In this document: piece after piece, positions 6,019 through 58,180 of the stretch
Position numbering within the stretch: position 1 is the stretch's first letter
Layout: each line of letters starts with the position of its first letter
Origin: Eubacterium sp. 14-2
GTDB lineage: Bacteria > Bacillota > Clostridia > Lachnospirales > Lachnospiraceae
NCBI RefSeq assembly: GCF_000403845.2
Contig: NZ_KE159567.1
Location: forward strand, 1,744,911 to 1,808,910
DNA: 64,000 bases
Direction of reading: 5' to 3'
Notes under the pieces: model-generated
The model's input: the letters and a program-made list of their open reading frames with translations, nothing else
Told to the model about the DNA's origin: nothing
Databases searched by the model: none
Translations under genes and position numbers: made by a program

Positions 6019-6102
6019 CTATCTGCAGTCAAATGCCGGATTTGCCGCATAAAAGTTTTTGGAATCCAGGTTATCCTGTACAATGCGCAGTCCTTCACCG
6101 AA
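6019..6102 (-). pseudogene. cotJC: 3' end of split cotJC-type manganese catalase gene
   Basis: On the minus strand the frame reads FGEGLRIVQDNLDSKNFYAA then NPAFDCR and a TAG stop (6019-6021). This matches the conserved C terminus of spore-coat CotJC-type manganese catalases. It continues in phase from the fragment at 8957-9332 if the 10-bp repeat CTTCACCGAA is collapsed. It is separated from the rest of the gene by the 2.86 kb recombinase element. Confidence 0.75.
6093..6102. repeat. Putative attachment core, left copy
   Basis: CTTCACCGAA, identical to 8957-8966, at the junction between the element and the 3' part of cotJC. In the gene's direction it encodes the conserved FGE of the catalase. 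Confidence 0.7.
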
Positions 6103-6122
6103 ACGGGAGGATTGAAGTAAAA

Positions 6123-6464
6123 TTATCTGTTGATTTTTTGCATTTTCTTGATAATAGATTGCCAATACATGCGGTCTTTTAAGACCCGGATTACCGTAAT
6201 GGTGGAATCCTCCACAACAAAGAAAATTAAATATGTACTGTAAGGCTTGAAATAAACGCTTAATCCTTCGATCACATATCCCGTAGCTTCATAGCCTTTG
6301 GGGAAGGAATCCAGTTCTTTGATTGCCTTCTTTATCTTCTTTGAAAAATTTTCCGCATATTCCCGATATTTGAAGGTGTCAAGAATATACTTTTTTGTTG
6401 ACTTAATATCCAGGAGAGCATCTTTGGAAATCACAATTTTGTATTTTTTAGGTATATCCGGCAT
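6123..6464 (-). CDS. ParE/RelE-superfamily toxin
   Basis: 113 residues, normal for RelE/ParE toxins. It has the family pattern: N-terminal YKIVISKDALLDIKSTKKY (strand then helix), FPKGYEA in the middle and a C-terminal strand pair TITVIRVLKDRMYW. The C-terminal Arg and Tyr are consistent with an mRNA-interferase or gyrase-poison fold; the two are not separable by eye. The ATG at 6464 shares its A with the TAA of the upstream antitoxin, so translation is coupled. Its likely role is maintenance of the recombinase element. Confidence 0.85.
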   Translation of the reverse strand: MPDIPKKYKIVISKDALLDIKSTKKYILDTFKYREYAENFSKKIKKAIKELDSFPKGYEATGYVIEGLSVYFKPYSTYLIFFVVEDSTITVIRVLKDRMYWQSIIKKMQKINR

Positions 6465-6634
6465 TATATTTTGTCAATTTCCTCCCATGCTTCATCAATC
6501 GTATAGACATCGCCTTTTTTCATGCTGTCTATTCCCTTGGAGAGTTCGTCATATAATGCGCCTATGGCTGCTTTTTCGGAATATTCAGTTTTAAGGATTT
6601 CCTGATTTCTGATTGCCTGTGCTGCAGGTGCCAT
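6464..6634 (-). CDS. Small antitoxin paired with the ParE/RelE toxin
   Basis: 56 residues (starts MAPAAQAIRNQEILKTEYSE, ends with AWEEIDKI). The ATG at 6634 has the ribosome binding site AAAGGAAGTGAT. Its TAA overlaps the toxin start by one base, the classic antitoxin-toxin arrangement. Acidic and helical, probably with an N-terminal DNA-binding part and a C-terminal toxin-neutralising helix; the antitoxin family is not clear. Confidence 0.8.
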   Translation of the reverse strand: MAPAAQAIRNQEILKTEYSEKAAIGALYDELSKGIDSMKKGDVYTIDEAWEEIDKI

Positions 6635-6670
6635 AGTATCACTTCCTTTCGGTTGTTTTCTTTATTATAC

Positions 6671-6700
6671 ATTATACGGTATATAGTATTGGCTTATCAA
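6671..6700 (-). promoter_or_regulatory. Sigma-A type promoter of the toxin-antitoxin pair
   Basis: Read on the minus strand: TTGATA (6700-6695), 18 bases, TATAAT (6676-6671), about 37 bases upstream of the antitoxin ATG. Confidence 0.6.
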
Positions 6701-6757
6701 CAGATTTTTATTAAATTTTCCTCAAAACTGTGTGTCTTAGACTTTTGTGATTAATTG

Positions 6758-8266
6758 TTAAATGTTCCAGGTAATTTCAATGTTTCCGTCTGCAATCCGA
6801 ATGACTTTGATAAGCGTATCGACTACCGCCTGTCTGTCCTCGAAAGAAAGCGTTTCCCATGCTTTCACATGATTGGTTATCTGCTTCAATCTGCCCTCTG
6901 TATCTGTGACATTAGCCGTAACGATTTCTTCCTGCAAGGCTTTCCGCTCTGCGTCCAGTTCTGATACTTTTTCGTCTATGTACTTCATCAGAACGCCGCT
7001 TGCCCCGGATACTTTGGAGAGAAGTTCTTCGATTTCTTCCTCAATCTGTGTCAGACGGATTTTTTTCGTCATGTGTGATTGTTCTTCTCCTGCGTCAGAC
7101 AGGCAGGAGAGTTTTTGAAATTCTGACAGTCTTTCCCTGATTGCACCAAGCATATATTCTTCCAAAACGTCCGCGTAAATCGTACAGCCTGCCCCGGTGC
7201 AGTTGCTTCCGCGGCTTCCCGACTGGCTGCAAACAAAGTAACGTCCCCACTTTGTTTTCGCCTTACGGATTGTCAGCGCATAACCACATTTGCCGCATTT
7301 TACCTTGCCTGCAAGCCATGAATTTTTTGGTTTACAGGTTTTTGTTGACTGTCTGTTGTTCAGACACCGTATGCGGCAGGCAAGCCACGTCTTAGAGGGA
7401 ATAAAACCCTTATGCGGTGCAAGCACAATCTCTTTGTCGGATAAGTCGCTCTGTTTTCTTGAAGTGGAAACTGTACCCTTATAGAGATAGCAGGCATTAT
7501 AACTCGTAAAATCACTTGCCGGATTATAGATGTTTGCGCCTTGACTCTGGAAAAACTGATACACGTCAATATCGGCTTGCACATACACGGGATTACGGAG
7601 CATTTCACTGATACGGGCGGTATTCCAGTTTGTGCCGCGCAGGTTTTTAATCTGATGTTCATTCAGGTACCGCACAATATCCCCAAGTGAATTGTCCGTG
7701 TCCGCATACATGGAGTAAATCAGCTTTAGCTGTTCGCTTTCCTCCGGGACTTCCTCATACATGGAAGTGCGCACATTGTCAACGACCGTGCCTGTCAGAC
7801 GGTAGCCATAGGGAATACGCCCGCCCATATAAAGGCCGCGCCTGCACCGTGCATAGTAAGCGTCCGTTACACGTTTCTGTATCGTTTCCCGTTCCAGTTG
7901 GGCGAACACAATACAGATATTTAACATCGCCCTGCCGATTGGTGTGGACGTGTCAAACTTTTCCGTGGAAGAAACAAACTCCACATGATATTTCTGAAAT
8001 ATCTCCATCATGTTTGCAAAATCCAAAATGGAACGGCTGATACGGTCGAGTTTGTAGACAATAACCCGTTTGATTTTTCCTGCGCGAATATCATTCATCA
8101 TTTTTTCAAAGCCGGGACGGTTGGTGTCCTTGCCCGAAAAACCTTTGTCCGTATATTCAATGCAGGCTTCTCCGTGGGTTTCGTATCTGCAATACTCAAG
8201 CTGGCTTTCCACGGATATGCTGTCCTTTTTTTCGATTGACTGTCTTGCATATAATGCGTCGTACAT
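6758..8266 (-). CDS. Large serine recombinase
   Basis: 502 residues, full length for the family. The resolvase catalytic domain (1 to about 150) has the nucleophile Ser10 in YARQS and the conserved VYKLDRISRS and QLERETIQKR motifs. The recombinase domain follows (PYGYRL at about residue 155 to about 270). The zinc ribbon is CGKCGYAL ... CSQSGSRGSNC, and a C-terminal coiled coil comes after about 385. The ATG at 8266 follows AGGAGGTAGATAAA. No lesion is visible, so it could be active. It is the integration/excision enzyme of the element that splits cotJC. A perfect AAACGAT-CAT-ATCGTTT dyad at 8304-8320 lies just upstream and may be an operator. Confidence 0.95.
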   Translation of the reverse strand: MYDALYARQSIEKKDSISVESQLEYCRYETHGEACIEYTDKGFSGKDTNRPGFEKMMNDIRAGKIKRVIVYKLDRISRSILDFANMMEIFQKYHVEFVSSTEKFDTSTPIGRAMLNICIVFAQLERETIQKRVTDAYYARCRRGLYMGGRIPYGYRLTGTVVDNVRTSMYEEVPEESEQLKLIYSMYADTDNSLGDIVRYLNEHQIKNLRGTNWNTARISEMLRNPVYVQADIDVYQFFQSQGANIYNPASDFTSYNACYLYKGTVSTSRKQSDLSDKEIVLAPHKGFIPSKTWLACRIRCLNNRQSTKTCKPKNSWLAGKVKCGKCGYALTIRKAKTKWGRYFVCSQSGSRGSNCTGAGCTIYADVLEEYMLGAIRERLSEFQKLSCLSDAGEEQSHMTKKIRLTQIEEEIEELLSKVSGASGVLMKYIDEKVSELDAERKALQEEIVTANVTDTEGRLKQITNHVKAWETLSFEDRQAVVDTLIKVIRIADGNIEITWNI

Positions 8267-8342
8267 TTTATCTACCTCCTAAAACGTAAGAAGTATATCC
8301 ACAAAACGATCATATCGTTTCCATGATTGTTTTGCAAAGGAC

Positions 8343-8453
8343 TTACGCATATTTTTTAAAAATCTGATAGAGCCGTGCCCCGATTTCCTGTCGGGTTTCC
8401 TGCTCTGATTTTTTCTGAAAGGCGGGGTAGATGTTGGTAACGGTCAGCCTCAT
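8343..8453 (-). CDS. Small ORF upstream of the recombinase
   Basis: 36 residues beginning MRLTVTNIYP and ending YQIFKKYA, in the recombinase direction. Short peptides of this look precede serine recombinases in other Clostridial elements. There is no strong ribosome binding site, so translation is uncertain. Possibly a recombination directionality or accessory peptide (inference only). Confidence 0.4.
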   Translation of the reverse strand: MRLTVTNIYPAFQKKSEQETRQEIGARLYQIFKKYA

Positions 8454-8640
8454 TTTATCTTTGCGTATCTGGGTATCGGGTGTAGAAGAGTTATTAGTTT
8501 TTATATTAAACTTTCTCCTTTGACGGTTTCCCTGAATTTTATGAGAAGTGGCAAGTACACTATACGGGAATAGCGTAAATTCCGCGGGCAACGAGCCAGG
8601 CGGACGTGCTTGCACGTACATTTGGCGACTGCCGCGAGAG

Positions 8641-8955
8641 TCAGTAGGCTGCGCCCGCCACCCCGCAGGGGATTACCTTAATCAGCACATAATCCAAAAT
8701 AATGTTCGTTATGCCGCCTGTAAGGGAAAGCCCAAAGCCAGGACCGGGTTTTCCCGCTGCAACAAGGAAAATCTCAAAAATAATACTGAGCATTGCAAAC
8801 GGTATCAGAAGAAAAATGGGTACGGCATAGGCTTCACAAAGAGAATACAGCATTTCATCTGCGCCCATTGCGTGTAAAATCGGTTTTCTAAATACAATGC
8901 CAATGATACAGAAGACCGTACTGACAATGACAGCAAACTGTAATCTTCCCGGTTT
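8641..8955 (-). pseudogene. MATE efflux pump fragment
   Basis: The frame reads about 105 residues of a MATE transporter (…GIVFRKPILHAMGADEMLY…, GKPGPGFGLSLTGGITNIIL, DYVLIKV, GVAGAAY) and stops at TGA 8641-8643. It lacks both ends: the fragment starts at the element's right boundary and ends abruptly. It is a passenger or recombination scar inside the element and is unrelated in position to the intact MATE gene at 21213. Confidence 0.75.
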
Positions 8956-8956
8956 G

Positions 8957-8966
8957 CTTCACCGAA
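8957..8966. repeat. Putative attachment core, right copy
   Basis: CTTCACCGAA, identical to 6093-6102. cotJC-like sequence lies to its right and element sequence to its left. Confidence 0.7.
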
Positions 8967-9332
8967 TCTCTGGAAATGGACAATTTCGCGGGCGCGCAGG
9001 AACCGGATGGGATCTGCCACTTCCTGGTCTTTTACCAGACGCAGAATGTTGTCGTAAGTGCTGCGGGCTTTCTGTTCTGCAGCCAGGTTCTCGGTCAGAT
9101 CAGTAATGGGATCCCCTTTGGACTGGAATTCACAGGCATTGAAAGGAATTCCTCCTGCGGCCTGAGGCCACAGTGCCAGCGTGTGATCCACATAATATTT
9201 GTCAAAGCCGGAAGCCTTGATTTCTTCCGGGGTCAGGTCTTTGGTCAGCTGATAAACAATGGTGCAGATCATTTCCATGTGGGCCAGTTCTTCGGTACCT
9301 GCATTGTGCTCAGAAATGTTCCAGGTTAAGTC
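8957..9332 (-). pseudogene. cotJC: Central part of split cotJC-type manganese catalase gene
   Basis: The minus-strand frame reads DLTWNISEHNAGTEELAHME, then MICTIVYQLT, WPQAAGGIPFNACEFQSKGD, LAAEQKARSTYDNILRLVKD and AREIVHFQRFGE. These are hallmark segments of spore-coat manganese catalases, including Glu/His metal ligands. An in-frame TAA (9333-9335) and loss of similarity mark a second break: the N terminus (probably several dozen residues) is missing and was not found elsewhere in the window. An internal ATG at 9278 exists but would omit part of the ligand set. Because of the 5' loss, a simple excision of the recombinase element alone would not restore the whole protein. Confidence 0.8.
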
Positions 9333-10010: not shown

Positions 10011-12191
10011 ATGGGTACGACAAAGATAAAGCAGCCTGTCAGAAACGGCAAGGTGAAAGTTCCTGTGGTAATGCAAATGGAAGCGCTGGAGTGCGGCGCG
10101 GCTTCTCTCACGATGATCCTTGCATATTACGGGAAATGGATACCTCTTGAGCAGGTACGCGCCGACTGCGGCGTATCGCGCGACGGTTCCAACGCAAAAA
10201 ATATCCTGAAAGCAGCACGCAGCTATGGGTTGGTCGCAAAGGGCTATCGCTATGAGCCGGAGGGTTTAAAAGAGAATGGAAAATTTCCCTGTATCATTCA
10301 TTGGAATTTCAATCATTTTGTAGTGCTGGACGGCTTCAAGGGCAGCAAGGCATATCTGAACGACCCTGCAAAAGGGAGTTATTCCGTGCCCATGGAACTA
10401 TTTGACAAGTCTTTTACGGGGATTTACCTGATGTTCGAGCCTTCAGAGAGCTTTGAGCCGGGCGGAGCCCCCAAAAGCATACTGAAGTTTGCGAAAAAAC
10501 GGCTGAAAGAGGCCAAAACAGCAATGGTATTTGTGGCGCTGACAACGCTGATTACCGCTCTGTTGGGGATTATCACCCCGGCATTCTCACGGGTTTTCCT
10601 GGATAGGCTGCTTACCGGTGAAAACCCGGAATGGTTTTTGCCGTTTATTTTTGCACTTGGAGGAATAAGCGTGATACAGCTTATTGTGGAATAGATCAAA
10701 GCTGTGTATTCGCTGAAAATAAACGGTCAGCTTTCGGCGGTGGGAAGCACCGATTATATGTGGAAGGTTCTTCGGATGCCGATGGAATTTTTCTCCCAGC
10801 GTATGGCGGGGGATATTCAGCAGAGGCAGGGAATGAATGCTTCGGTTGCCCGGTCATTGGCAGAGACTTTCGCGCCGTTGGCGTTAAACACGGTTATGCT
10901 GGTGTTTTATTTTGCTGTAATGCTCCGCTACAACCCGATTCTGACGCTGGTGGGGGTGGCCTCTGTCGTAATCAATCTTGTGGTCTCAAAGATTATATCC
11001 AATAAGCGCATGAACATTACCCGAGTACAGATGCGTGATGCGGGAAAACTCGCAGGAGCTACCGTGGCGGGGATTGAAATGGTGGAAACCATCAAGGCCA
11101 GCGGAGCAGAGAATGGATTTTTTGAGAAGTGGGCGGGCTATCAGGCCAGCGTGAATACCCAACAGGTGCGTTTTGAACGTCTGAATCAGTATCTTGGCAT
11201 GATTCCTGAGCTTGTGGCGTCACTGGCTAATATCGCTGTACTGATACTCGGAGTTTATTTTACAATAGATGGGAAATTTACAGTGGGCATGATCATGGCA
11301 TTTCAGGGCTTTTTAGGTTCTTTTACCGAACCTGCGCAGACGTTGATTTCGGCGGGACAGACGCTCCAGGAAATGCGCACGCAGATGGAGCGCGTTGAAG
11401 ATGTGATGGAATACCCGACGGATGTGAATTGCAGCAGAGATGGGATTTTAGAGGATGCGGAGTACAGCAAATTATCGGGCAGCGTGGAACTTAAAAACGT
11501 CACGTTCGGCTATTCGCGTCTTGCCAAGCCTCTGATCAGGGACTTTAATTTAACGCTCAAAACTGGCAGCCGCGTGGCCTTTGTGGGCACATCAGGCTGC
11601 GGAAAATCCACGCTGTCAAAGTTGATTTCGGGACTTTACCAGCCCTGGGAAGGCGAAATCTTATTTGATGGAAAGCCCATAGAAAAAATTGACAGAAGTG
11701 TTTTTACCGGATCGTTGGCGGTGGTGGATCAGGATATCATTTTGTTTGAGGATACAATCGCAAACAATATCAAAATGTGGGATGATTCGATAGAGGATTT
11801 TGAGGTAATCATGGCAGCCCGGGATGCGCAGCTCCATGAGGATATTATGCAGCGTGACGGCGGCTACAGTTACAAAATCACCGAGGGTGGCAAGGACTTT
11901 TCGGGCGGCCAGCGGCAGCGAATGGAGATTGCCCGTGTGTTAGCCCAGGATCCGACCATCATCATTCTTGACGAGGCCACTTCTGCGCTGGATGCAAAAA
12001 CGGAATTTGAGGTTGTAAGATCCATAAAAGACCGTGGAATTACCTGTATTGTTGTGGCCCACAGGTTATCAACCATACGTGACTGCGATGAAATCATCGT
12101 GCTTGACAATGGAGAGGTTGCAGAGCGCGGAACACATGATGATCTGTACGAAAGAGGCGGCATCTACACACAGCTTGTAACAAACGAATAA
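10011..12191 (+). pseudogene. NHLM-type peptidase/ABC exporter with in-frame amber stop
   Basis: Homology is continuous in one frame across the TAG at 10692-10694. A C39 peptidase domain comes first: Cys28 in MEALECGAASL, the His in HWNFNHFVVLD and the Asp in LNDPAKG. Transmembrane segments begin at about residue 165, and a complete ABC ATPase lies at the C-terminal end (GTSGCGKST, FSGGQRQR, IIILDEATSALD). The intact protein would be about 725 residues. It would cut the leader after its double-Gly motif and export the core peptide. The amber codon lies inside the membrane domain, so truncation would separate peptidase from ATPase. Readthrough or suppression is possible but unsupported. ATG 10011 has AGAGGAGAG upstream. 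Confidence 0.85.
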
Positions 12192-12210
12192 AGGTGGTGA
12201 AAATAAGATA

Positions 12211-14411
12211 ATGGGATGGTTTGACGAACAGATAAAACAGCGGAAACAAAACGATCAGGACGTTTTTGCAGATGCTTTTATCAACATTGCCGGCGCAGTG
12301 ATGGGCAGTCATGTTTCAGCCGCGCTCAATGACGAGCGGCAGCAGATGAAAAACGCCTTTGACGAGATATTAAGATTTTATCATATAAATACGAAAGATA
12401 TTCCCGACAATATCACGGACAGAAATGAACAGCTTGAATACTTGCTTCGCCCCCATGGAATCATGCGCCGCACGGTAACGCTCTCGAAAGGCTGGTACAA
12501 AGATGCAATCGGAGCAATGCTGGGAATCCGTAAAAGCGATGGTATGGTTGTGGCGCTTATCCCCACGGGATTTTCAGGTTATCGTTACAGGGATATGGAA
12601 ACAGGAAAACAGGTGAAAATAAACGGCAAAAACCAGGAGCTTTTCGAGGAAGAAGCGATAGCTTTTTACAGGCCGCTGCCGCTGAAAGCACTTGGAATTT
12701 CGGATTTGATGCGGTATATTCTGGGAACGCTTTCCCCCGCTGATTTTGTGATGACAGGCGCATCAGCGCTGGCGGTGGCGTTGATCGGAATGTTATCGCC
12801 GAAACTTAATAATCTGCTGTTTTCACGTGTTATCGAGGACGGCAGCACACAGATTTTGCTTGCGATTACGGTGTTTATGATTTGCGTGACACTCAGTTCC
12901 CTGCTGATAAACGGCGTAAAGTCGCTGATTACAGCGCGGATAAACACTAAAATGAGTATTTCGGTTCAGGCTGCAATCATGTCCCGCTTAATGTCGCTGC
13001 CCGCAGGGTTTTTCAAGAATTACAGTTCAGGAGAATTATCTGCGCGGGCGCAATGCAGCAATTCGCTGTGCGAGATGCTGGTGTCTGTAGCGCTGACGAC
13101 CGGGCTTACGTCTGTATTTTCACTTGTATACATATCGCAGATCTTTGTGTACGCGCCCGCGCTGGTGATACCGTCCCTTATCATTACGCTTGCTACAGTG
13201 GCGTTTACAGGGGTATCGGCATTGGTACAGATGAAAGTCAGCAAAAAAAGATGGAGCTGTCCTCAAAAGAGAGCGGAATGTCCTATGGGCTGATATCGGG
13301 CGTGCAGAAGATTAAACTTTCGGGAGCGGAAATGCGTGCGTTCGCACGGTGGGGAAACCTTTATGCCGAAGAAGCGCGGCTTGCCTATAACCCTCCGATG
13401 TTTCTGAAAATAAACAGCGTTATTTCAAGCGCTATCTCCCTTGCAGGAACGCTTATGATGTATTGGATTGCAGTATCGTCAGGAGTGTCCGTAGCGGACT
13501 ACTATGCATTCAATACTGCTTACGGAATGGTTTCCGGGGCATTTATCTCGCTTGCGGGAATTGCGTTGACTGTGGCGCAGATTAAGCCAATTATGGATAT
13601 GGTAGAGCCGATTTTGAAGGCAGTTCCCGAAATTTCCGAGGGAAAGCAGATGATTACGCGGCTTTCGGGCAGCATTGAGCTGAATAACGTGTCCTTCCGT
13701 TACAACGAAAATATGCCCCTTGTGATTGACGATCTTTCGCTGAAAATCCGTCCGGGGCAGTATGTGGCAATCGTGGGTGCAACCGGGTGCGGGAAGTCTA
13801 CGCTTTTGCGGCTTATGCTGGGCTTTGAATCGCCGCAGAAGGGTGCTGTTTATGTAGATGGCAAGGATATTGCGGCGGTGGACTTAAAGTCTTTCAGGCG
13901 CAAGATCGGCGTGGTAATGCAAAATGGCAAGTTGTTTACGGGAGATATTTTCTCGAATATTATCATATCTGCACCGTGGCTTACTATGGATGATGCCTGG
14001 CATGCCGCCGAATTGTCAGGCATTGCAGAGGATATTCGCCGTATGCCGATGGGGATGCACACAATGATTTCCGAGGGCAGCGGCGGAATTTCGGGCGGGC
14101 AGCGGCAGCGGCTGATGATTGCCCGTGCCATCGCGCCGAAACCAAAAGTACTGATGTTTGACGAGGCGACTTCAGCCCTTGATAATCTTACGCAGAAAAC
14201 GGTTTCGGAATCGCTGGACAGTCTGAAATGCACGAGGATTGTTATCGCGCACAGGCTCTCTACCATTAAACAGTGCGACAGGATCCTGGTGCTTGATCAG
14301 GGAAAGATTATCGAAGACGGGACATATGACCAGTTGATACAAAGGGGAGGTTTTTTCGCAGAACTGGTGGCCAGGCAAAGGGTTGACGATACCGCAGAAT
14401 TGAAGGCATGA
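12211..14411 (+). pseudogene. NHLM-type ABC exporter ATP-binding protein, frameshifted
   Basis: The first frame runs from ATG 12211 to 13293. Homology continues in the -1 frame from about 13250 to 14411. An NHLM-specific N-terminal domain (about 150 residues) is followed by membrane segments and a C-terminal ATPase with GATGCGKSTLL, ISGGQRQRL and VLMFDEATSALD. There is no peptidase domain. The break is at an A7-G run (13244-13251); one extra A would restore a 733-residue protein. Such a run can promote slippage, but with a nonsense codon in its partner exporter, decay is the simpler reading. Confidence 0.85.
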
Positions 14412-14554
14412 AAATTTTTTGGAAATTTATTGGCTCTCGGCGGTTTTGATTCGTATAAAAGAACAGAGGCGCGAATTACGTCTGTGATTATCAGTTTTTA
14501 TACTGTAATCTGTAACAAAATGTAAAGGTAACTTAATCTCAGGAGGAAGGCACT

Positions 14555-14881
14555 ATGGAAAAAAAAGACCTTATTGCAAAGGCAACACAGACAAAAATTG
14601 ACGAAGAACTTATTGCAAAGGCAAAACAGGTAAACTCTGTCGAAGAGCTTATGGCTCTCGCAAAGGAAAATGGTTATCCGGTGGACGAGAAGGAGGCAGA
14701 GTTTTATTTTGGAAAGATTCACAAGACGGGCGAGTTATCGGATGATGAGCTTGATAATGTAGCAGGAGGCGGATGCCGTCCCAATCGTTGTAAATTCTGC
14801 GGAGGTGACCTTAACGCCGTCGAATCACACACTTATCCTCCAAATTTGACTTGCCCATACTGCGGTCAGTGGGAGTACTAA
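14555..14881 (+). CDS. RiPP precursor with Nif11/NHLP-like leader and Cys-rich core
   Basis: 108 residues; the ATG at 14555 has AGGAGGAAGG. The leader (1 to about 72) is acidic and helical, with ELSDDELDNVAGGG just before the cut site, the pattern removed by C39 peptidases. The core from Cys74 is about 35 residues with Cys at 74, 79, 82, 100 and 103 in CxxC-like pairs (CKFCGG … CPYCG), resembling a minimal zinc ribbon. Residues 6-12 and 19-25 are a near-exact duplication (LIAKATQ / LIAKAKQ), also visible in the DNA. The radical SAM maturase directly downstream is the likely modifying enzyme, and the exporter genes upstream the likely route out. The nature of the modification is not predictable here. 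Confidence 0.85.
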   Translation: MEKKDLIAKATQTKIDEELIAKAKQVNSVEELMALAKENGYPVDEKEAEFYFGKIHKTGELSDDELDNVAGGGCRPNRCKFCGGDLNAVESHTYPPNLTCPYCGQWEY

Positions 14882-14938
14882 GGATAATATCCGTATTTTG
14901 CGGCAGTTTCCGCAAATAATGTTAAGGAGTGAATTGAG

Positions 14939-16336
14939 ATGAGCCGGTACATATTAAATCCAGACATCGCCCTGCGCTCATGGCGGCTGGTGCCGTACGC
15001 ATATTACAGAAAGGGCGTCCGTTACGCGAAAGGATTGAAAAAGGAAGAGTTTGAATTCCTTTTGAAGTGCGACGGTAAAACGGAGCTTGAGGGAGAACTG
15101 CCGCTTGCGGAAAAATTTTTGGATATGGGATTTATTGCTCCTGCAAAGGATGAGAGTAACCTGTCTGAATGGCAAAAACACCTCGACTGTGACAACCGCT
15201 ATTTTCCTGCAATCAGCTGGATGATAACAGGGAAATGTAATTATAACTGCCTGCACTGCTTCAACGCTGCCGATAACGCTCCCATAATGAATGAGTGGAC
15301 GCCTGAGGAAGCAAACAGGCTGATTGAGCAGGCGCAAAAGTGTGGAATCAATGCTTTTACGATTACAGGCGGCGAGCCTATGCTCCATAAGAATTTTTTT
15401 GAGATTGTGGAGAGTATTTATGCACACGGAATGCACCTTGAGGATCTGAACACGAATGGTTCTTTCCTTGACGGGACAGCATTGGAGCAATTCAGGAAAA
15501 TCGGCTGTAATCCGCTGATTAAAATATCCTTTGATGGAATCGGGCATCACGACTGGCTCAGAAACCGCAAGGGGGCGGAGACGGACGCGCTTTTGGCAAT
15601 TCGCCTGTGCGTGGAGAAGGGTTTTCGTGTAAAAGTGCAGACGAACGTTCATCGGCTCAATATCGAATCCATGTTGCCTACAGCGGAAATGTTAGACGAA
15701 ATGGGTGTGGACGAAATGAGGGTGATCCGCACTTCAGAATCGCCGCGCTGGAAGGAAAATGCAGATGGTTCCTGCCTGGAGGTTGAGGAATATTACGAAA
15801 GTATGTTGGAATTTGCCGACAGATATGTTAAAAAGAAACACAATATGATCATAGATATATGGCAGTTTCTTACAGTGTTTCCACGAACAGAATCTTACCG
15901 CCTGCGCCCCGTTGAATACACTGCAGGAGAGTACCGGGACAGTATGCCCGTATGCCGTGGGAACAGAGGGATGGTTGCGGTTGCGGCAGACGGAAATGTT
16001 TACCCTTGTATGCAGATGTCAGGGTATTTTAGCGCGAAGAATAATTTCCTGGGCAATGTTAAAAAAGAGGGATTGCAGACAATTCTGCAAGAAGGGAGAT
16101 ATCTGAGGGAGGTCTGCACTACACTGGGGCAGTTGTCAGAGCACAATGAAACCTGCGCGGTGTGTCCTTATTTCAAACACTGCGGGGGTGGCTGCCGCGC
16201 GCTGGCACTGGCGATTACAGGTGATAAATTTGGCATTGATCCTGCAAAATGTCTGTTTTTCCAAAAAGGTTGGCACAGGAAAATCGAGGAAACGCTGCGG
16301 GGGTGGAAAAATGTGGCGCCTATGGAGGGCGAATGA
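14939..16336 (+). CDS. Radical SAM/SPASM peptide maturase
   Basis: 465 residues. The N-terminal ~85 residues look like a PqqD/RRE-type leader-binding domain (YILNPDIALRSWRLVPYAYY…). The SAM-cluster motif is Cys100-Cys104-Cys107 (CNYNCLHC), followed by GGEP for SAM binding. The C-terminal SPASM region supplies further Cys (CRGNRG … VYPCMQ, then CAVCPYFKHCGGGC and CLFF) for auxiliary iron-sulfur clusters. Such enzymes install thioether or C-C cross-links or epimerise residues in RiPP precursors. The ATG at 14939 follows AAGGAGTG. The TGA overlaps the next start (ATGA), so the next peptide is co-translated. Confidence 0.9.
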   Translation: MSRYILNPDIALRSWRLVPYAYYRKGVRYAKGLKKEEFEFLLKCDGKTELEGELPLAEKFLDMGFIAPAKDESNLSEWQKHLDCDNRYFPAISWMITGKCNYNCLHCFNAADNAPIMNEWTPEEANRLIEQAQKCGINAFTITGGEPMLHKNFFEIVESIYAHGMHLEDLNTNGSFLDGTALEQFRKIGCNPLIKISFDGIGHHDWLRNRKGAETDALLAIRLCVEKGFRVKVQTNVHRLNIESMLPTAEMLDEMGVDEMRVIRTSESPRWKENADGSCLEVEEYYESMLEFADRYVKKKHNMIIDIWQFLTVFPRTESYRLRPVEYTAGEYRDSMPVCRGNRGMVAVAADGNVYPCMQMSGYFSAKNNFLGNVKKEGLQTILQEGRYLREVCTTLGQLSEHNETCAVCPYFKHCGGGCRALALAITGDKFGIDPAKCLFFQKGWHRKIEETLRGWKNVAPMEGE

Positions 16337-17112: not shown

Positions 17113-17220
17113 ATGGCTAAATCACCACATACGCCAGAATTTTGTGATATGAAGTTATATGGTACAATCATTCTCTCATACATTGTGAATGAGGGAGGTG
17201 TTGCCTGTATTGAAACATAG
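17113..17220 (+). CDS. Small element-associated ORF
   Basis: 35 residues (MAKSPHTPEFCDMKLYGTII… ending GGVACIET). ATG 17113 follows GGGAGGTGTTTTT. The short peptide sits directly ahead of another small ORF and a serine recombinase, an order I associate with Clostridial mobilisable elements. Function unknown. Confidence 0.5.
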   Translation: MAKSPHTPEFCDMKLYGTIILSYIVNEGGVACIET

Positions 17221-17416
17221 AGAATTTATTTATGTCGGCGAGCCTGTTCCGGAATTGAATGAGCAGGAACACGCAGCATTTCTTATGAATTTTCAAAAGT
17301 CAATCCTTTTATCATTGGAAAAACGGAATTTATTGACCGCTTCACAGAGAGAACGCTGTTTGCTTGAGCTTGAAAAACAATATCGTATAAATCAGAAAAA
17401 GCAACGTCAGGCATAA
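17210..17416 (+). CDS. Small element-associated protein, SHOCT-like look
   Basis: About 68 residues if TTG 17210 is used (MKHREFIYVGEPVPEL…); GAGGGAGGTG at 17191-17200 is correctly spaced for it. An ATG at 17189 in the same frame overlaps the ribosome binding site and is less likely. The C-terminal half, LTASQRERCLLELEKQYRI, resembles SHOCT-type short C-terminal helices. It is a typical neighbour of site-specific serine recombinases in integrative elements. Role unknown. Confidence 0.6.
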   Translation: MKHREFIYVGEPVPELNEQEHAAFLMNFQKSILLSLEKRNLLTASQRERCLLELEKQYRINQKKQRQA

Positions 17417-17537: not shown

Positions 17538-17744
17538 ATGTCAATAGATAAATACGAAACACTAAATCAGGAAAGAAAAATACAGCACACAAAAAGAAAG
17601 GTTGCCGCATATTGCCGAGTATCTACGGACAACGAAGACCAGGCAAATTCGTTTGAAAGCCAACAGCGTTATTTCAGACAATATATAGAGCGTAATCCCG
17701 ACTGGGAGCTTTATGAAGTGTTCGCAGAAATAAAACTCGCTTAA
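17538..17744 (+). pseudogene. Serine recombinase, N-terminal fragment
   Basis: 68 codons from ATG 17538 (GGAAAGGAG upstream). The resolvase N terminus is clear: KVAAYCRVSTDNEDQANSFE, with the catalytic Ser in CRVS, then YFRQYIERNPDWELYEVFAE, where the frame ends in IKLA*. A possible leftover tail, IDTKGKNRISDKPQK*, follows in another frame (from 17744), suggesting an internal deletion that removed about 400 residues. Not functional. Confidence 0.85.
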
Positions 17745-47270: not shown

Positions 47271-47384
47271 AATGTGAATCTGAAAATCCAAGAACGGAGC
47301 CGGAAGGCTCTGTATCTTGTACCGATAGATTACGGCTTGCCACTGGCAGGCTATTTTTCATGCCATCTTCTGGAGGTGATGCCT

Positions 47385-48992
47385 ATGGCAATGCGGAAAC
47401 TGAAAAAGTATAAGCCGACAAAGTTCAAGGCAAAGGACAGCCGCTATGATAAGGATGCCGCCGATTTTGCCGTGATGTTCATAGAAAGCCTGTGCCACAC
47501 CAAAGGGACATGGGCGGGGAAGCCTTTTGAACTGATCGACTGGCAGGAGCAGATCATCCGTGATATTTTCGGCACGTTAAAGCCGAACGGATACCGCCAG
47601 TTCAACACAGCATACGTTGAGATTCCGAAGAAGCAGGGCAAGTCAGAGCTGGCGGCGGCCGTGGCGCTGCTTTTGACCTGCGGGGACGGGGAGGAACGCG
47701 CCGAGGTGTACGGCTGTGCCGCTGACCGTCAGCAGGCCACTATCGTCTTTGACGTGGCGGCGGACATGGTGCGGATGTGTCCGGCGCTTTCCAAGAGGGT
47801 GAAGATACTCGCCTCGCAGAAGCGGATCATATACACGCCGACCAATTCCTTCTACCAGGTGCTTTCGGCGGAGGCGTATTCCAAGCACGGCTTCAACATC
47901 CACGACGTGGTGTTTGACGAGCTGCACACGCAGCCGAACCGGAAATTGTTTGATGTCATGACCAAGGGTTCCGGGGACGCCAGGATGCAGCCGCTGTATT
48001 TCCTCATCACCACGGCGGGGACGGACACCCATTCCATCTGCTATGAGACGCACCAGAAGGCGACGGATATTTTAGAGGGCAGGAAGATTGACCCTACATT
48101 TTACCCGGTGATTTATGGTGCGGATGAAGCGGATGACTGGACGGACCCGAAGGTGTGGAAAAAGGCGAACCCCTCACTGAACATCACGGTGGACATTGAT
48201 AAGGTGGAGGCTGCCTGCGAGTCGGCAAAGCAGAATCCGGGGGAAGAGAACAGTTTCCGGCAGCTCCGCCTGAACCAGTGGGTGAAACAGGCGGTGCGGT
48301 GGATGCCCATGGACAAATGGGATGCCTGTGCCTTCACGGTTTCGGAGGATGGGCTGGAGGGGCGTGTCTGCTACGGCGGGCTGGACTTATCCTCCACCAC
48401 GGATATCACGGCATTCGTGCTGGTGTTCCCGCCGCTGGATGAGGAGGACAAATACTGCATCCTGCCGTACTTCTGGGTGCCGGAGGAGACGCTGGAGCTG
48501 CGGGTGCGGCGCGACCATGTCCCCTATGATGTGTGGGAGCGGCAGGGGAAGCTGATGACCACGGAGGGGAACGTGGTGCATTACGGCTTTATTGAGAAAT
48601 ACATTGAGAGGCTCGGTGAGCGGTTCAACATCCGGGAGATCGCCTTTGACCGGTGGGGCGCTGTGCAGATGGTGCAGAACCTTGAGGGGATGGGATTCAC
48701 GGTGGTCCCGTTCGGGCAGGGCTTCAAGGATATGTCCCCGCCCACCAAGGAGCTGATGAAGCTGGTGCTGGAGCAGATGATTGCCCACGGCGGGCATCCG
48801 GTCCTGCGGTGGATGATGGATAACATCTTCATCCGCACCGACCCTGCAGGAAATATAAAGGCAGATAAGGAGAAGTCCACGGAGAAGATTGACGGGGCAG
48901 TGGCCGCCATCATGGGGCTTGACCGTGCCATCCGCTGCGGGAATGAAACTTCGGAGAGCGTCTATGATTCCCGCGGCTTGTTGGTATTTTAA
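47385..48992 (+). CDS. Terminase large subunit
   Basis: 535 residues from ATG 47385 (GGAGGT 47372-47377). Walker A YVEIPKKQGKSELAAAVALL, Walker B HDVVFDELHTQPNRK, and nuclease-domain Asp in CYGGLDLSSTTDITAFVLVF. Fits HK97/YmfN-type large terminases. It packages DNA into the procapsid through the portal at 49468. Intact. Confidence 0.95.
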   Translation: MAMRKLKKYKPTKFKAKDSRYDKDAADFAVMFIESLCHTKGTWAGKPFELIDWQEQIIRDIFGTLKPNGYRQFNTAYVEIPKKQGKSELAAAVALLLTCGDGEERAEVYGCAADRQQATIVFDVAADMVRMCPALSKRVKILASQKRIIYTPTNSFYQVLSAEAYSKHGFNIHDVVFDELHTQPNRKLFDVMTKGSGDARMQPLYFLITTAGTDTHSICYETHQKATDILEGRKIDPTFYPVIYGADEADDWTDPKVWKKANPSLNITVDIDKVEAACESAKQNPGEENSFRQLRLNQWVKQAVRWMPMDKWDACAFTVSEDGLEGRVCYGGLDLSSTTDITAFVLVFPPLDEEDKYCILPYFWVPEETLELRVRRDHVPYDVWERQGKLMTTEGNVVHYGFIEKYIERLGERFNIREIAFDRWGAVQMVQNLEGMGFTVVPFGQGFKDMSPPTKELMKLVLEQMIAHGGHPVLRWMMDNIFIRTDPAGNIKADKEKSTEKIDGAVAAIMGLDRAIRCGNETSESVYDSRGLLVF

Positions 48993-49386: not shown

Positions 49387-49467
49387 AAACATAAGACAGG
49401 GATTAAGACGGGCATCGCTTTTGCGGTGCCTTTCTGCTGTCCGTTTTCAGAAAGGAGAGTGGTTCCT

Positions 49468-50823
49468 ATGGGATTATTCAGCGGATTGTTCAGGGCGAGG
49501 GATGCCCCTCAGAACAGGACTTCCGGCAGCGCCTACAGTTTTTTCATGGGCGGCAGCACGAGCGGGAAAAGGGTAAATGAGCGTTCCTCCATGCAGATGA
49601 CGGCGGTGTACTCCTGCGTCCGGATTCTTTCCGAGGCGGTGGCGGGGCTTCCGCTGCATTTCTACAGATATACGGATAACGGCGGGAAGGAAAAGGCGGC
49701 AGACCACCCGCTGTATTTTTTACTCCATGACGAGCCGAACCCGGAGATGACTTCCTTTGTGTTCCGGGAAACGCTGATGACGCACCTGCTCCTCTGGGGC
49801 AACGCCTACGCACAGATCATCCGCAACGGCAAGGGGGAAGTTATCGCGCTGTACCCATTGATGCCAGACAGGATGAATGTGGAGCGGAATTCCAAGGGGC
49901 AGCTTTATTACGAATACACGGTGAGCATGGATGACGCACCCACGGTGAAGGGCAGCACGGTCATCCTGCCGCCCACGGAGGTGCTGCACATCCCCGGACT
50001 CGGCTTTGACGGGCTGGTGGGCTATTCCCCCATTGCCATGGCAAAGAACGCCATCGGCATGGCGATAGCCTGCGAGGAATACGGGGCGAAGTTCTTCGCC
50101 AACGGCGCGCAGCCGAGCGGCGTGCTGGAGCATCCGGGGACGCTGAAAGACCCTTCAAGGGTAAGGGAGAGCTGGCAGTCCACCTTCGGCGGCAGCCACA
50201 ATGCCAACAAGGTGGCTGTTTTGGAGGAGGGGATGAAATATACACCGATTTCCATTTCCCCGGAACAGGCGCAGTTCCTTGAGACGCGGAAGTTCCAGAT
50301 CAATGAGATAGCAAGGATTTTCCGTGTGCCTCCCCACATGGTGGGCGACCTGGAAAAGAGCAGCTTCTCCAACATCGAGCAGCAGTCTTTGGAATTTGTA
50401 AAATACACTCTCGACCCGTGGGTGTCGAGGTGGGAGCAGTCCATGGCGAGGTCCCTGCTGACACCGGAGGAAAAGAAGCAGTATTTTGTGAAGTTCAACG
50501 TGGACGGCCTGCTCCGGGGCGACTACCAGAGCCGCATGAACGGGTACGCCGTGGGGCGGCAGAACGGGTGGATGTCCGCAAACGACATCCGGGAGTTGGA
50601 GAACCTTGACCGCATCCCGGAGGAACTGGGCGGCGACTTATACCTTATCAATGGGAACATGATGCCGCTTTCAATGTCAGGGGCGGCATACCAGAAAGGG
50701 AAGGAGGAATCCAATGAAAACGAAGAAGTTCTGGAAGTGGAGGAACCAGGCGGAGGCGGGGACGGCTCCGGAGGAGAGGACTCTGTTTCTGAACGGCACC
50801 ATCGCAGAGGAAAGCTGGTTTGA
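49468..50823 (+). CDS. Phage portal protein (HK97 family)
   Basis: 451 residues from ATG 49468 (AAAGGAGAG). Typical segments are MQMTAVYSCVRILSEAVAGL, LPLHFYRYTDNGG, HPLYFLLHDEPNPEMTSFVF, LLLWGNAYAQIIRNGKGEVI, FRVPPHMVGDLEKSSFSNIE and VKYTLDPWVSRWEQSM. It forms the dodecameric DNA gate. The C terminus overlaps the protease gene by 110 bp. Confidence 0.95.
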   Translation: MGLFSGLFRARDAPQNRTSGSAYSFFMGGSTSGKRVNERSSMQMTAVYSCVRILSEAVAGLPLHFYRYTDNGGKEKAADHPLYFLLHDEPNPEMTSFVFRETLMTHLLLWGNAYAQIIRNGKGEVIALYPLMPDRMNVERNSKGQLYYEYTVSMDDAPTVKGSTVILPPTEVLHIPGLGFDGLVGYSPIAMAKNAIGMAIACEEYGAKFFANGAQPSGVLEHPGTLKDPSRVRESWQSTFGGSHNANKVAVLEEGMKYTPISISPEQAQFLETRKFQINEIARIFRVPPHMVGDLEKSSFSNIEQQSLEFVKYTLDPWVSRWEQSMARSLLTPEEKKQYFVKFNVDGLLRGDYQSRMNGYAVGRQNGWMSANDIRELENLDRIPEELGGDLYLINGNMMPLSMSGAAYQKGKEESNENEEVLEVEEPGGGGDGSGGEDSVSERHHRRGKLV

Positions 50824-55290: not shown

Positions 55291-55342
55291 GCGGCGTCCC
55301 CCTGGGCATATTTTTGCATTTTAACAGGAAGGGGTGTCCGCC

Positions 55343-58180
55343 GTGGCGAACAGAATCAAGGGTATCACTGTTGAGATCGGCGGGGATACCACCAAGTTAC
55401 AGACCGCATTAAAGGGAGTCAATTCCTCCATCCGGGATACGCAGTCGCAGCTACGGGATGTGGAGAAGCTCTTAAAATTAGATCCCGGCAACACGGAGCT
55501 GCTGGCACAGAAGCACAGGCTTTTGGGCGAGGCGGTGGCGGGGACGAAGGAAAAGCTGGAGACCCTAAAGACCGCCGCAGAGCAGGCAAACACGGCCCTT
55601 GCCAATGGGGAAATCTCACAGGACCAGTACGATGCCCTCCAGAGGGAGATCATCGAAACGGAAAACAATCTGCGTGACCTGGAGCGGCAGGCAGGGCAGT
55701 CCGCTGTGGCATTACAGAAAATCGCCGCCACGGGTGAAAAGCTGAAGACTGTCGGGGATAACATTTCCTCCGCCGGGCAGAAGCTGCTCCCCGTCACGGC
55801 AGGCGTGACTGCCCTCGGCACGGCGGCGGTCAGCACGGCGGCAAACTTTGAAAGCTCCATGTCGCAGGTGCAGGCAACGATGGGAATCACGAAGGATGCC
55901 ATGTCCACGGTCAACGGCGAGAGCGTCAACACGATGGATACGCTTTCCGCACTGGCAAAGAAGATGGGCAGCGAGACAGCATTCTCCGCAAGCGAGTGTG
56001 CGGAGGCTTTGAACTACCTCGCCCTTGCCGGTTATGACACACAGCAGATGTGCGACACGCTCCCCACCGTCCTAAATCTTGCGGCGGCGGGAGGCATCGA
56101 CCTTGCGGCGGCATCGGACATGGTGACGGACGCCATGTCCGCCCTGGGCATGGGCGTGGATGAGGCGGGGACGATGGTTGACCAGATGGCGAAGACCGCC
56201 TCCACCACCAACACATCTGTGGCGCAGCTTGGCGAGGGCATCCTCACCATCGGTGCGACTGCCAAGACCGTGAAAGGCGGCACGGCGGAGCTGAACACGG
56301 CCCTCGGCATCCTCGCCAACAACGGCATCAAGGGCGCGGAGGGCGGCACACACCTCCGAAATGTCATCCTGTCATTACAGAACCCGACCGACAAGGCGGC
56401 TGCCTGTATGGAGCAGCTTGGCCTGGATGTTTACGATTCCGAGGGGAATATGCGCTCCTTAAACGACATCCTGGGTGACCTGAACATGAGCATGGACGGC
56501 ATGACGGCGGCGGAGAAGTCCAATATCATCGGGCAGATTTTCAACAAGACCGACCTGTCTTCCGTGAACGCCCTGCTTGCCAATACAGGGACTACCTGGG
56601 ATGACCTGCAGCAGTCCATCATCGACAGCGGCGGTGCGGCGCAGCAGATGGCGGACACACAGCTTGACAACCTGCAGGGGCAGATCACTATTTTAAAGTC
56701 AGCCTTAGAGGGGCTGGCTATTTCTTTTGGGGAGCTTTTGATGCCCGCCATCAAAATGATTGTGGGGTGGGTGCAGCAGTTCGTAGACTGGCTGAACGGC
56801 ATGGACGAGGGGACGAAGAAAGTCATAACCACGGTCGCACTATTGGCGGCGGCTTTGAGGCCGGTGCTGATTGTCGTTGGGAAAGTGGTGTCTGCGGTCG
56901 GCACAATCATGACGATTGTCCCGAAAGTGGCAGGCGTCATCAATACCGTAAAGACTGCCTTTGCTGCCTTAAACACCACCATGCTGGCGAACCCCATCTT
57001 CTTAATCATAGCGGCAATCACGGCACTGGTGGCGGCCTTTATTTATCTGTGGAACACGAATGAGGATTTCCGGCAGTTCTGGATTAACCTTTGGGAGAAT
57101 GTGAAAGAAGTCGCCATTGCCGTATGGGAGGCAATCAAAAACTTCTTTGCGGCGGCATGGGAGGCCATCTCGTCCACAGCGCAGGCTGTTTGGAACGGGA
57201 TAAAGGATTTTTTTTCCGGGCTGTGGGAAGGGATAAAAACGATATTCAGCACAGTGGTGGAAGTGATTAAAACCATCATCACCACTTATTTCAATATTTA
57301 CAAGACCATTATCACTACGGTCTTAAATGCGATAAAGACGGTATTCACAACCATTTGGAATGGGATAAAAACCGTGGTTACCACGGTAGTGACGGCAATC
57401 CAGACCTTTATCACCACGGCATGGAACGCCACCAAAAATACAGTCACTACAGTCCTGAATGCGATAAAGACGGTCATCACCACGGTTTGGAATGGAATAA
57501 AAACTGCTGTCACGACTGTGGTAAATGCCATAAAGACTGTAATTTCTACCGTTTGGAATGGGATAAAAAGCACGGTCAGCACCGTGGTAAACGGGATAAA
57601 AAATACAGTTTCAACAGTGTTCAATAACATCAAGTCCTCCATCAGCGGCACGATGGGCAATATCGTATCTGTGATAAAGAGCGGCTTTAACAACGCCATC
57701 AGCTTCATCACGAGCCTACCGTCCAAAGCCCTGCAGTGGGGCAAGGACATGATCATGGGTATCGTGAACGGCATTAAGAGCTGTATCGGGGCTGTGGGAG
57801 ATGCTGTGAGCAGCGTGGCAAACAAGATCAAGTCCTTCCTGCACTTCTCCGTGCCGGACGAAGGGCCGCTGACCGATTACGAGAGCTGGATGCCGGACTT
57901 CATGAAGGGGCTGGCAAAGGGCATCGAGGACAGCAAGAGCATGGTGGCAAAGGCAGTGGACGGCGTGGCGGCGGATATGGTGCTGAACCCTTCCGCAGCC
58001 GTGCAGGAGATTTCTGTATCTGGAAATGGCGGGGACGGACCGTCACAGGGCGGCTCCATAAACGGGCCGCTGATCGAGGTGAAGGAAATGAACGTGAGGA
58101 GCGAGGAGGACATCCGCAAAATCTCACAGCAGCTTTACCGGCAGCTCCAGCAGGGACGGCGGGCAAACGGATATTCGTAG
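55343..58180 (+). CDS. Tail tape measure protein
   Basis: 945 residues from GTG 55343 (AGGAAGGG; GTG 55334 in frame is too close to the site). Coiled coil at 1-140 (SSIRDTQSQLRDVEKLLKLD), TMP core 'FESSMSQVQATMGITKDAMS … ALNYLALAGYDTQQM', then membrane-like segments at about 500-590. A run of 11-residue repeats (VWNGIKTAVTT, VVNAIKTVIST …) spans about 650-780, and a C-terminal domain holds FLHFSVPDEGPLTDYESWMP. It sets tail length and helps DNA entry. Confidence 0.95.
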   Translation: MANRIKGITVEIGGDTTKLQTALKGVNSSIRDTQSQLRDVEKLLKLDPGNTELLAQKHRLLGEAVAGTKEKLETLKTAAEQANTALANGEISQDQYDALQREIIETENNLRDLERQAGQSAVALQKIAATGEKLKTVGDNISSAGQKLLPVTAGVTALGTAAVSTAANFESSMSQVQATMGITKDAMSTVNGESVNTMDTLSALAKKMGSETAFSASECAEALNYLALAGYDTQQMCDTLPTVLNLAAAGGIDLAAASDMVTDAMSALGMGVDEAGTMVDQMAKTASTTNTSVAQLGEGILTIGATAKTVKGGTAELNTALGILANNGIKGAEGGTHLRNVILSLQNPTDKAAACMEQLGLDVYDSEGNMRSLNDILGDLNMSMDGMTAAEKSNIIGQIFNKTDLSSVNALLANTGTTWDDLQQSIIDSGGAAQQMADTQLDNLQGQITILKSALEGLAISFGELLMPAIKMIVGWVQQFVDWLNGMDEGTKKVITTVALLAAALRPVLIVVGKVVSAVGTIMTIVPKVAGVINTVKTAFAALNTTMLANPIFLIIAAITALVAAFIYLWNTNEDFRQFWINLWENVKEVAIAVWEAIKNFFAAAWEAISSTAQAVWNGIKDFFSGLWEGIKTIFSTVVEVIKTIITTYFNIYKTIITTVLNAIKTVFTTIWNGIKTVVTTVVTAIQTFITTAWNATKNTVTTVLNAIKTVITTVWNGIKTAVTTVVNAIKTVISTVWNGIKSTVSTVVNGIKNTVSTVFNNIKSSISGTMGNIVSVIKSGFNNAISFITSLPSKALQWGKDMIMGIVNGIKSCIGAVGDAVSSVANKIKSFLHFSVPDEGPLTDYESWMPDFMKGLAKGIEDSKSMVAKAVDGVAADMVLNPSAAVQEISVSGNGGDGPSQGGSINGPLIEVKEMNVRSEEDIRKISQQLYRQLQQGRRANGYS

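Follow-up and report, generated by a model that had tools for sequence, protein, structure and literature searches.

Large serine recombinase elements at several fixed positions of the spore-coat gene cotJC in Lachnospiraceae as candidates for removal in the mother cell

Introduction

The window analysed here is a stretch of 64,000 nucleotides from Eubacterium sp. 14-2 (positions 1,744,911 to 1,808,910 of contig NZ_KE159567.1); the genome is referred to as G000 and this contig as C1, and positions without a contig name are window coordinates. The spore-coat gene cotJC is interrupted in the window by an element with a large serine recombinase, and the question raised is whether the gene is in decay or is split by an element of the skin type, which would be removed in the mother cell at sporulation. 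The original prediction for this locus had proposed a skin-like interruption in a copy that was now decayed. Mother-cell action of cotJC is known for relatives, and the CotJC-type genes cotCB and cotD of Clostridioides difficile depend on sigma-K (PMC3789822).

The three pieces of cotJC

A PF05067 search of the genome, tblastn and translation showed cotJC of G000 in three pieces, interrupted at codons 63 and 175. Each fixed insertion place is called a slot below and is numbered by the codon of the joined protein. Two of the pieces lie in the window, in frame with each other on the minus strand as had been proposed: the middle piece, about codons 62-175 (9299-8957; PF05067 positions 62-190), and the 3' piece, which begins at about codon 173 and ends with the stop (6102-6019; tblastn and translation). 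The core of slot 175, TTCGGTGAAG, spans codons 173-176 of the joined protein, and protein matches extend to 178. Two copies of the 10-bp repeat CTTCACCGAA, 2,864 bp apart, sit exactly at the joints of the element with the 3' piece (6093-6102, where the arm is conserved in relatives) and with the middle piece (8957-8966), and merging them into one yields the in-frame FQRFGEGLRIVQ, so that the predicted repeat held on both counts.

The 5' piece, codons 1-64, was located by the PF05067 search at G000:C1:1826185-1826373 on the minus strand, outside the window and 72 kb past the middle piece, as the last part of an intact cotJA-cotJB-cotJC operon. The core of slot 63, GGTAC, is common to both ends of this 72-kb stretch; the copy at the joint with the middle piece covers codons 62-63 (9295-9299, minus strand), and the inward-facing arms carry inverted copies of GGAACATTTC. 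Because the 5' end sits 72 kb away behind cotJA and cotJB, the end of the window fragment at 9299 is a second junction and not a sign of decay, contrary to what had been concluded from the apparently missing 5' end; the right boundary first proposed, 9332, reaches 33 bp into this second element. Collapsing both cores gave one uninterrupted CotJC of 199 residues, and a search of G000 for cotJC beyond the three pieces found no further copy. In-frame pieces of a mother-cell gene with a common short core, recurring in relatives, are thus found here as in skin, and the window joint is, as compared across genomes, far beyond chance because the same junction and arms recur elsewhere.

The element in slot 175 occupies 6103-8966 on the minus strand (2,864 bp including one core copy, delimited by junction comparison with relatives). 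It encodes a large serine recombinase of 502 residues, LSR175, at 6758-8266 on the minus strand, with an open frame and matches to Pfam PF00239 (Resolvase), PF07508 (Recombinase) and PF13408 (zinc ribbon), which confirmed the predicted interval of about 2.86 kb with an intact recombinase. The recombinase is kept and the arms are nearly complete.

Recombinase families and their slots

The best 80 of the 104 stretches with LSR175 relatives in the genome collection were kept, with recombinases 68 to 97% identical to the window protein. A tail like the 3' piece of the window was found at 71 of these loci, a 5' or middle piece at 26 and either at 75, so the same insertion point, which the prediction had proposed to look for in other genomes, was found with the same recombinase. 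The tails were in frame in 71/71 cases, with a stop within 150 nt in 70/71, as located by protein match, which favours intact tails and could miss a badly decayed one; 70 of the 71 lay 3' of LSR175 and co-directional with it, at a distance of 27-3,877 bp (median 209). Both element ends were seen in 22 loci, 2.5-7.0 kb apart. At four cotJC loci (L099, L111, L121 and L128) the flanks hold no tail, and it was found elsewhere in the same genome. LSR175 is, on the placement of its relatives, a cotJC specialist with a single target, since 75 of the 80 kept relatives lie in cotJC. In the loci without a cotJC piece the arm is joined to other sequence (clearly in L077, L096, L127 and L129, doubtfully in L143), which suggests that GA is the crossover dinucleotide of LSR175.

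The recombinase of slot 63, LSR63, abuts the N-terminal piece in eight genomes of the genus (G003, G009, G010, G011, G012, G014, G025 and G026). In G020 the contig end cuts the gene, in G027 it stands at this piece in fragmentary form, and in G000 and G005 it occupies another part of the element; its position was unreadable in G016, G018 and G022, where contigs end too early. The family survey for LSR63 covered 18 loci from 17 family genomes, one of them the locus of G000 itself, and outside the genus the flanks, about 1.5 kb long, held a cotJC piece at 11 of 17 loci. A third recombinase serves G007 and G023 (codons 65-67), another with a shared AGCAGA core serves slot ~136 in L173 and L175-L178, and another serves slot ~30 in G424 and G460, whose two proteins are 36% identical over a partial frame. 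Five recombinase families, 22-28% identical over partial alignments, therefore use places near codons 30, 63, 65-67, 136 and 175. A further slot at codon 42 (L083, L091) was rejected as the matches extended into element sequence, and three flagged stops in G424 were not accepted as decay as the region shows another insertion near codon 30. The stop flags in G449, G450, G452, G453 and G454 appear to come from matches that run past a junction.

Slots are also occupied together. A whole-genome search for cotJC pieces was made in 40 of the 80 genomes with LSR175 relatives. Lachnospiraceae isolate C64_1 (contig CAJTIU010000046.1) carries four colinear pieces on one contig and one strand, in the order codons 1-63, 61-136, 133-180 and tail, and the three gaps hold LSR63, the codon-136 recombinase and LSR175. 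In the metagenome-assembled genome G460 one contig shows slots ~30, 63 and 136 occupied, and a second contig slot 175; its piece 137-175 was not found.

A CotJC match was obtained in 27 of the 29 genomes of the genus survey. Both pieces of a split at codons 63-67 were present in 15/27 (13 at codon 63, with G007 and G023 a few bases further), a split at 175 only in 2/27 (G006, G028), one piece only in 3/27 (G010, G016, G021) and a whole gene in 7/27; G000 and G005 are split at both codon 63 and codon 175. For codon-63 elements that have both flanking pieces on the same contig, the length is about 18 kb (G014), 33 kb (G003), 40 kb (G005), 72 kb (G000) and 80 kb (G025). No stop codons were found within the aligned cotJC codons of the 27 genomes; the one flagged in G021 stands ahead of its piece, where the contig ends. 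The median ratio of non-synonymous to synonymous divergence (dN/dS) of the middle piece was 0.025 for split genes and 0.02 for whole ones, among pairs with computable dS. This ratio was rejected as decisive proof of function while split, because LSR63 moved recently between species and many dS values were saturated. In G013 (L054:1039-18160) an intact cotJC is followed 16 kb on by a deleted 3' remnant of codons 60-92, as expected if redundancy lets pieces decay, and G437 has an intact cotJC plus an intact further piece. Since the two point in opposite directions, one case each, G013 was dropped as a natural control.

Promoter-like sequences and sporulation control

The motifs before the recombinases were compared with the sigma-E consensus of Bacillus subtilis. 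The sequence ATA-N17-CATACATT was found before the small open reading frame (ORF) of LSR63 in 7 of 11 genus loci and in a relaxed form in 8, G010 having no upstream sequence, and the relaxed form was found in 5/7 loci of other genera (background per 300 nt, 0.003 strict and 0.015 relaxed). LSR175, which has a small ORF of its own, showed the relaxed box in 52/74 sequences within 350 nt and in 57/76 within 700 nt, counting the window; the figures for comparison were 1.0% of shuffles and 1/19 other recombinases of G000. Small ORFs of about 47-92 codons precede three recombinase families, and the two that were scanned gave no database match.

A fixed form, ATA-N2-GTAC-N11-CATA-N3-T, spans LSR63, LSR175 and 3/5 of the codon-136 loci, so that the sigma-E-like box is common by motif match to three of the five families. 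It was present in 65/80 LSR175 loci. All 13 matches in 51 genus loci, which had been picked around cotJC, lay inside cotJC elements, and none was found at 20 recombinase loci of G000 (19 unrelated to cotJC). The 3.99 Mb of G000 held six matches, three of them in cotJC elements, one of these at an LSR63 remnant. The box was rejected as a general sporulation consensus, as the three matches outside the elements have no recognised sporulation gene: one falls within ORFs, another precedes a weak ORF and the third precedes a peptidase-like ORF of 483 residues (named by eye).

In the window, the box of slot 175 lies at 8536-8563 (minus strand) before a small accessory ORF (8343-8621, minus strand; the frame opens further upstream), a candidate directionality factor without a match in Pfam, NCBIfam or PHROGs. 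Its start codon was kept in 36 of 37 readable copies, the window being the 37th and without it, and 39 more copies were unreadable by the pattern used. An inverted repeat overlaps a sigma-A-like promoter, TTGCAA-17-TATGAT, which was read from the sequence and precedes LSR175 at 8309-8337 (minus strand); a similar promoter stands before many of its relatives. The LSR63 operon is preceded by the box ATATGGTACAATCATTCTCTCATACATT (17157-17184, plus strand) and by a small ORF of 75 residues as listed (17189-17416, plus strand), another candidate directionality factor, which occurs ahead of LSR63 in G000 and in elements of 10 other genus genomes and had no match in NCBIfam or PHROGs.

The published boxes of sigma-K are AC and CATATAAT, and CATATTAT belongs to a sigma-E-like site (PMC3789822). 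Upstream of cotJA, AC-N16/17-CATAnnnTA was found in 24 of 27 regions (26 genomes). Of the three regions without it, two had less than 140 nt upstream and one had a looser form. The mother-cell sigma factors are available to the host, as sigE and sigK are open and over cut-off in G000 and sigK is over cut-off in 27/29 genus genomes. The natural reading of element boxes that are sigma-E-like and a cotJ promoter that is sigma-K-type would be a sigma-E step (excision) followed by a sigma-K step (cotJ transcription), which is a prediction.

Remaining features of the two elements

Between the upper arm and the box of the slot-175 element lies a fragment of a MATE transporter (8641-8950, minus strand, upper end approximate), remnant cargo called from frame reading and a weak PF01554 match below cut-off. 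The lower part encodes a ParE-type toxin (6123-6464, minus strand; PF05016 over cut-off) and a RelB/ParD-type antitoxin (6464-6634, minus strand) with a weak match below cut-off (NCBIfam NF050811, E=0.0006). The ParE toxin, like an AbiEii toxin in a codon-63 element, may be part of an addiction module. The latter (L050:1964-3489; PF08843) and an AbiEi match below threshold lie close to the 3' end of that element, and similar proteins occur in element regions of six other genomes.

The slot-63 element fills the window from 9300 to 64000 and continues to G000:C1:1826190, about 72.0 kb in all. Its cargo at 10011-16336 (plus strand; Pfam) comprises a C39 peptidase, an ABC transporter and radical SAM-SPASM proteins, and the transporter proteins are 93-98% identical to those in elements of G027 and, for one protein, G014 (L058, L039). 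The LSR63 gene runs over codons 1 to ~63 at 17538-17728 (plus strand) and resumes at G000:C1:1817531; its catalytic serine, at what we take to be its position, falls in this short N-terminal part. The gene is cut at about codon 63 by an inner insertion of 54.9 kb (17729-64000 in the window, ending at G000:C1:1817530) with two further serine recombinases and prophage genes, among them terminase (47274-48992), portal (49426-50823) and tape measure (55334-58180). Its right end is TTGTATCAAAGAC, preceded by GGCAAA repeats, and insertions with that right end were seen in LSR63-type genes near codon 62 (DEGISGT) in G000, L165, L188 and L189, the site in L188 being identical to G000 over 3 kb; in L191 the insertion is at codon 280. 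To judge by these sites, insertions of this type are mobile elements that use integrase genes as their landing place. Another LSR63 copy in the 72-kb element is a deleted remnant and has a promoter-like box of its own (L070:11654-11862). On an IMG/VR contig (L187), LSR63 (99.6% identical) lies next to cotJC codons 28-69, a host junction filed as virus. Across G000 (4 Mb; contigs C1, C2 and C3) there were 31 large serine recombinase matches, including six tandem groups of three.

Discussion

The cotJC elements are probably skin-like, being removed in the mother cell from several slots of one gene, a reading to which we give a probability of about 0.7. Removal at sporulation with restoration of the gene is suggested because many related gut bacteria have in-frame splits at the same small set of positions, and each element encodes a recombinase tied to its site (LSR175 open, LSR63 interrupted in G000). 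Each of these large serine recombinases uses one fixed slot in cotJC, joined by a short shared core, and precise excision would restore the reading frame. A sigma-E-type box before the small ORF and the recombinase would turn on excision in the mother cell, and the restored cotJABC would then be read from the sigma-K-type promoter. As the mother cell dies, the element would be kept in the germ line and could spread at little cost, as is established for skin. On the wider proposal, somewhat better than even in our judgement, cotJC of gut Lachnospiraceae would be a multi-slot gene with at least five fixed positions, each with its own unrelated recombinase family and occupied singly or together; a common switch of the sigma-E type would remove every element in the mother cell, leaving an intact cotJABC for sigma-K to read, and the elements would spread among species by horizontal transfer. 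The predicted skin-like interruption is well supported by comparison, through the shared insertion point (75 of 80 kept loci), the in-frame pieces and the promoter-like boxes, although no excised form was seen in the assemblies searched.

Several observations weigh against removal in the mother cell. Exact patterns for the circle junction gave no match in viral contigs, in 29 genus genomes for slot 63 or in 397 family genomes for slot 175; diverged circles would be missed by such patterns. The reversed control of the fixed box gave three matches against six, the box was not found in one codon-30 and both codon-65 (third-type) loci examined, and it was absent in 2/5 slot-136 loci and before LSR63 of L175; copies within one family are, besides, not independent. 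A plain sigma-A-like promoter also stands before LSR175, LSR63 is interrupted in G000, and 5/80 LSR175 loci are without a cotJC piece. A further whole cotJC occurs in 6/40 genomes, and with an insertion at codon 175, residues 1-175 are still encoded and might work even if nothing is excised. The synonymous divergence of LSR63 between G003 and G011 is 0.024 although that of cotJC is saturated; it is far below that of cotJC for several pairs and above 1 for others, and elements therefore seem to arrive repeatedly from a mobile pool. Intact pieces may for this reason partly reflect recent insertion; as evidence of function they count only when taken with the shared box and with the fact that five families converge on one gene.

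These points bear on two other explanations of the splits. The elements might use cotJC as a conserved, dispensable landing site, inserting, inactivating or truncating the gene and leaving only to transfer, without excision timed to sporulation. This is compatible with the horizontal movement of LSR63, the sigma-A-like promoter and the lack of the fixed box in loci of two of the five families; moreover, B. subtilis without this coat protein has no apparent defect according to the cited account (PMC12122855), and G017, a genome 82% complete, has sigK over cut-off and no CotJC match. We consider it unlikely, as the pieces are in frame wherever checked, over a recombinase divergence from dS 0.02 to saturation, and as five unrelated families are found on one mother-cell gene of 200 codons, three of them with the sigma-E-like box. 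Much less probable is a working product of about 175 residues at slot 175 that ends in a short element-coded stretch and makes excision there needless: the element arm does code for a short extension and a stop in the loci read, but the tail, untranslated without excision, is in frame in 71/71 loci where it was found, and the slots at codons 30, 63, 65-67 and 136 and the double splits are left unexplained.

Whether the copy of G000 itself is a dying pseudogene is a separate matter, compatible with removal in the mother cell in its relatives. The 54.9-kb insertion in the LSR63 gene, the accessory ORF of slot 175 without its conserved start and the MATE remnant between arm and box speak for it, while the three cotJC pieces, the cores and the cotJ promoter-like site are intact and the 5' end is present; overall we regard it as possible, with the odds leaning the other way. 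With LSR63 split and the accessory ORF lacking its start, both excision systems look damaged, and restoration of cotJC may no longer be possible for this copy. Decay as originally proposed has therefore lost its stated reason, the 5' end being present, and keeps a different one in this damage.

Among the closest known systems is skin of C. difficile, in which the CD1231 recombinase is expressed from a sigma-A promoter and the CD1234 directionality factor under sigma-E (PMC5025042). As there, a recombinase element splits a mother-cell gene, and the slot-175 layout of sigma-E-like box, small ORF, sigma-A-like promoter and recombinase is alike; here, in contrast, the gene is another one, it takes several elements in several slots, and excision and the role of the small factor are predictions. 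The non-phage element gin in gerE of Bacillus cereus, present in several strains, has a 9-bp core, 31 genes and three recombinases, with a serine recombinase and a small factor expressed specifically at sporulation (PMC5595907). It shares with the cotJC elements, also found in several strains, the non-phage nature, the short core and the serine recombinase with a small ORF (a candidate factor here), whereas gin is one element in its gene and cotJC takes several, down to about 2.5 kb with one recombinase. SP-beta in spsM, vfbin in spoVFB and yin in yabG (PMC10747680, PMC4191935) likewise split sporulation genes and carry recombinases, with a small candidate directionality factor in yin, but in one slot each, and cotJC is not among the split genes named in the parts of these papers drawn on. 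In heterocyst-forming cyanobacteria several elements with recombinase genes inside can split one gene in a differentiating cell, as do four in nifD of Rivularia in the account cited (PMC4874684); there the hosts are cyanobacteria and the process is nitrogen fixation, whereas the host here is a spore-former and the gene a coat gene. The open-access literature searched, in the portions available, contained no report of cotJC split by an element, and the nearest case was the phi027 prophage of C. difficile, a mobile element beside the CotJC-type catalase gene cotG (PMC11222575, PMC12122855), where, unlike here, cotG is described in those portions as downstream of attR and not split.

As far as the cited accounts go, descriptions of developmentally excised elements in sporulation genes, from Bacillus and clostridial models, each concern a single element in a single gene. 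Here one coat gene draws at least five recombinase families in dozens of Lachnospiraceae genomes; a single copy on one contig holds three elements, and in another genome four are inferred. This makes testable why mobile elements converge on mother-cell genes, as a possible cost-free harbour, and how several excisions within one gene are timed, and it offers a source of recombinases with natural target sites. Genes annotated as cotJC fragments may be whole in spores, and, if the proposed removal is true, cotJC would be a case of several DNA interruptions being removed from one bacterial gene during development.

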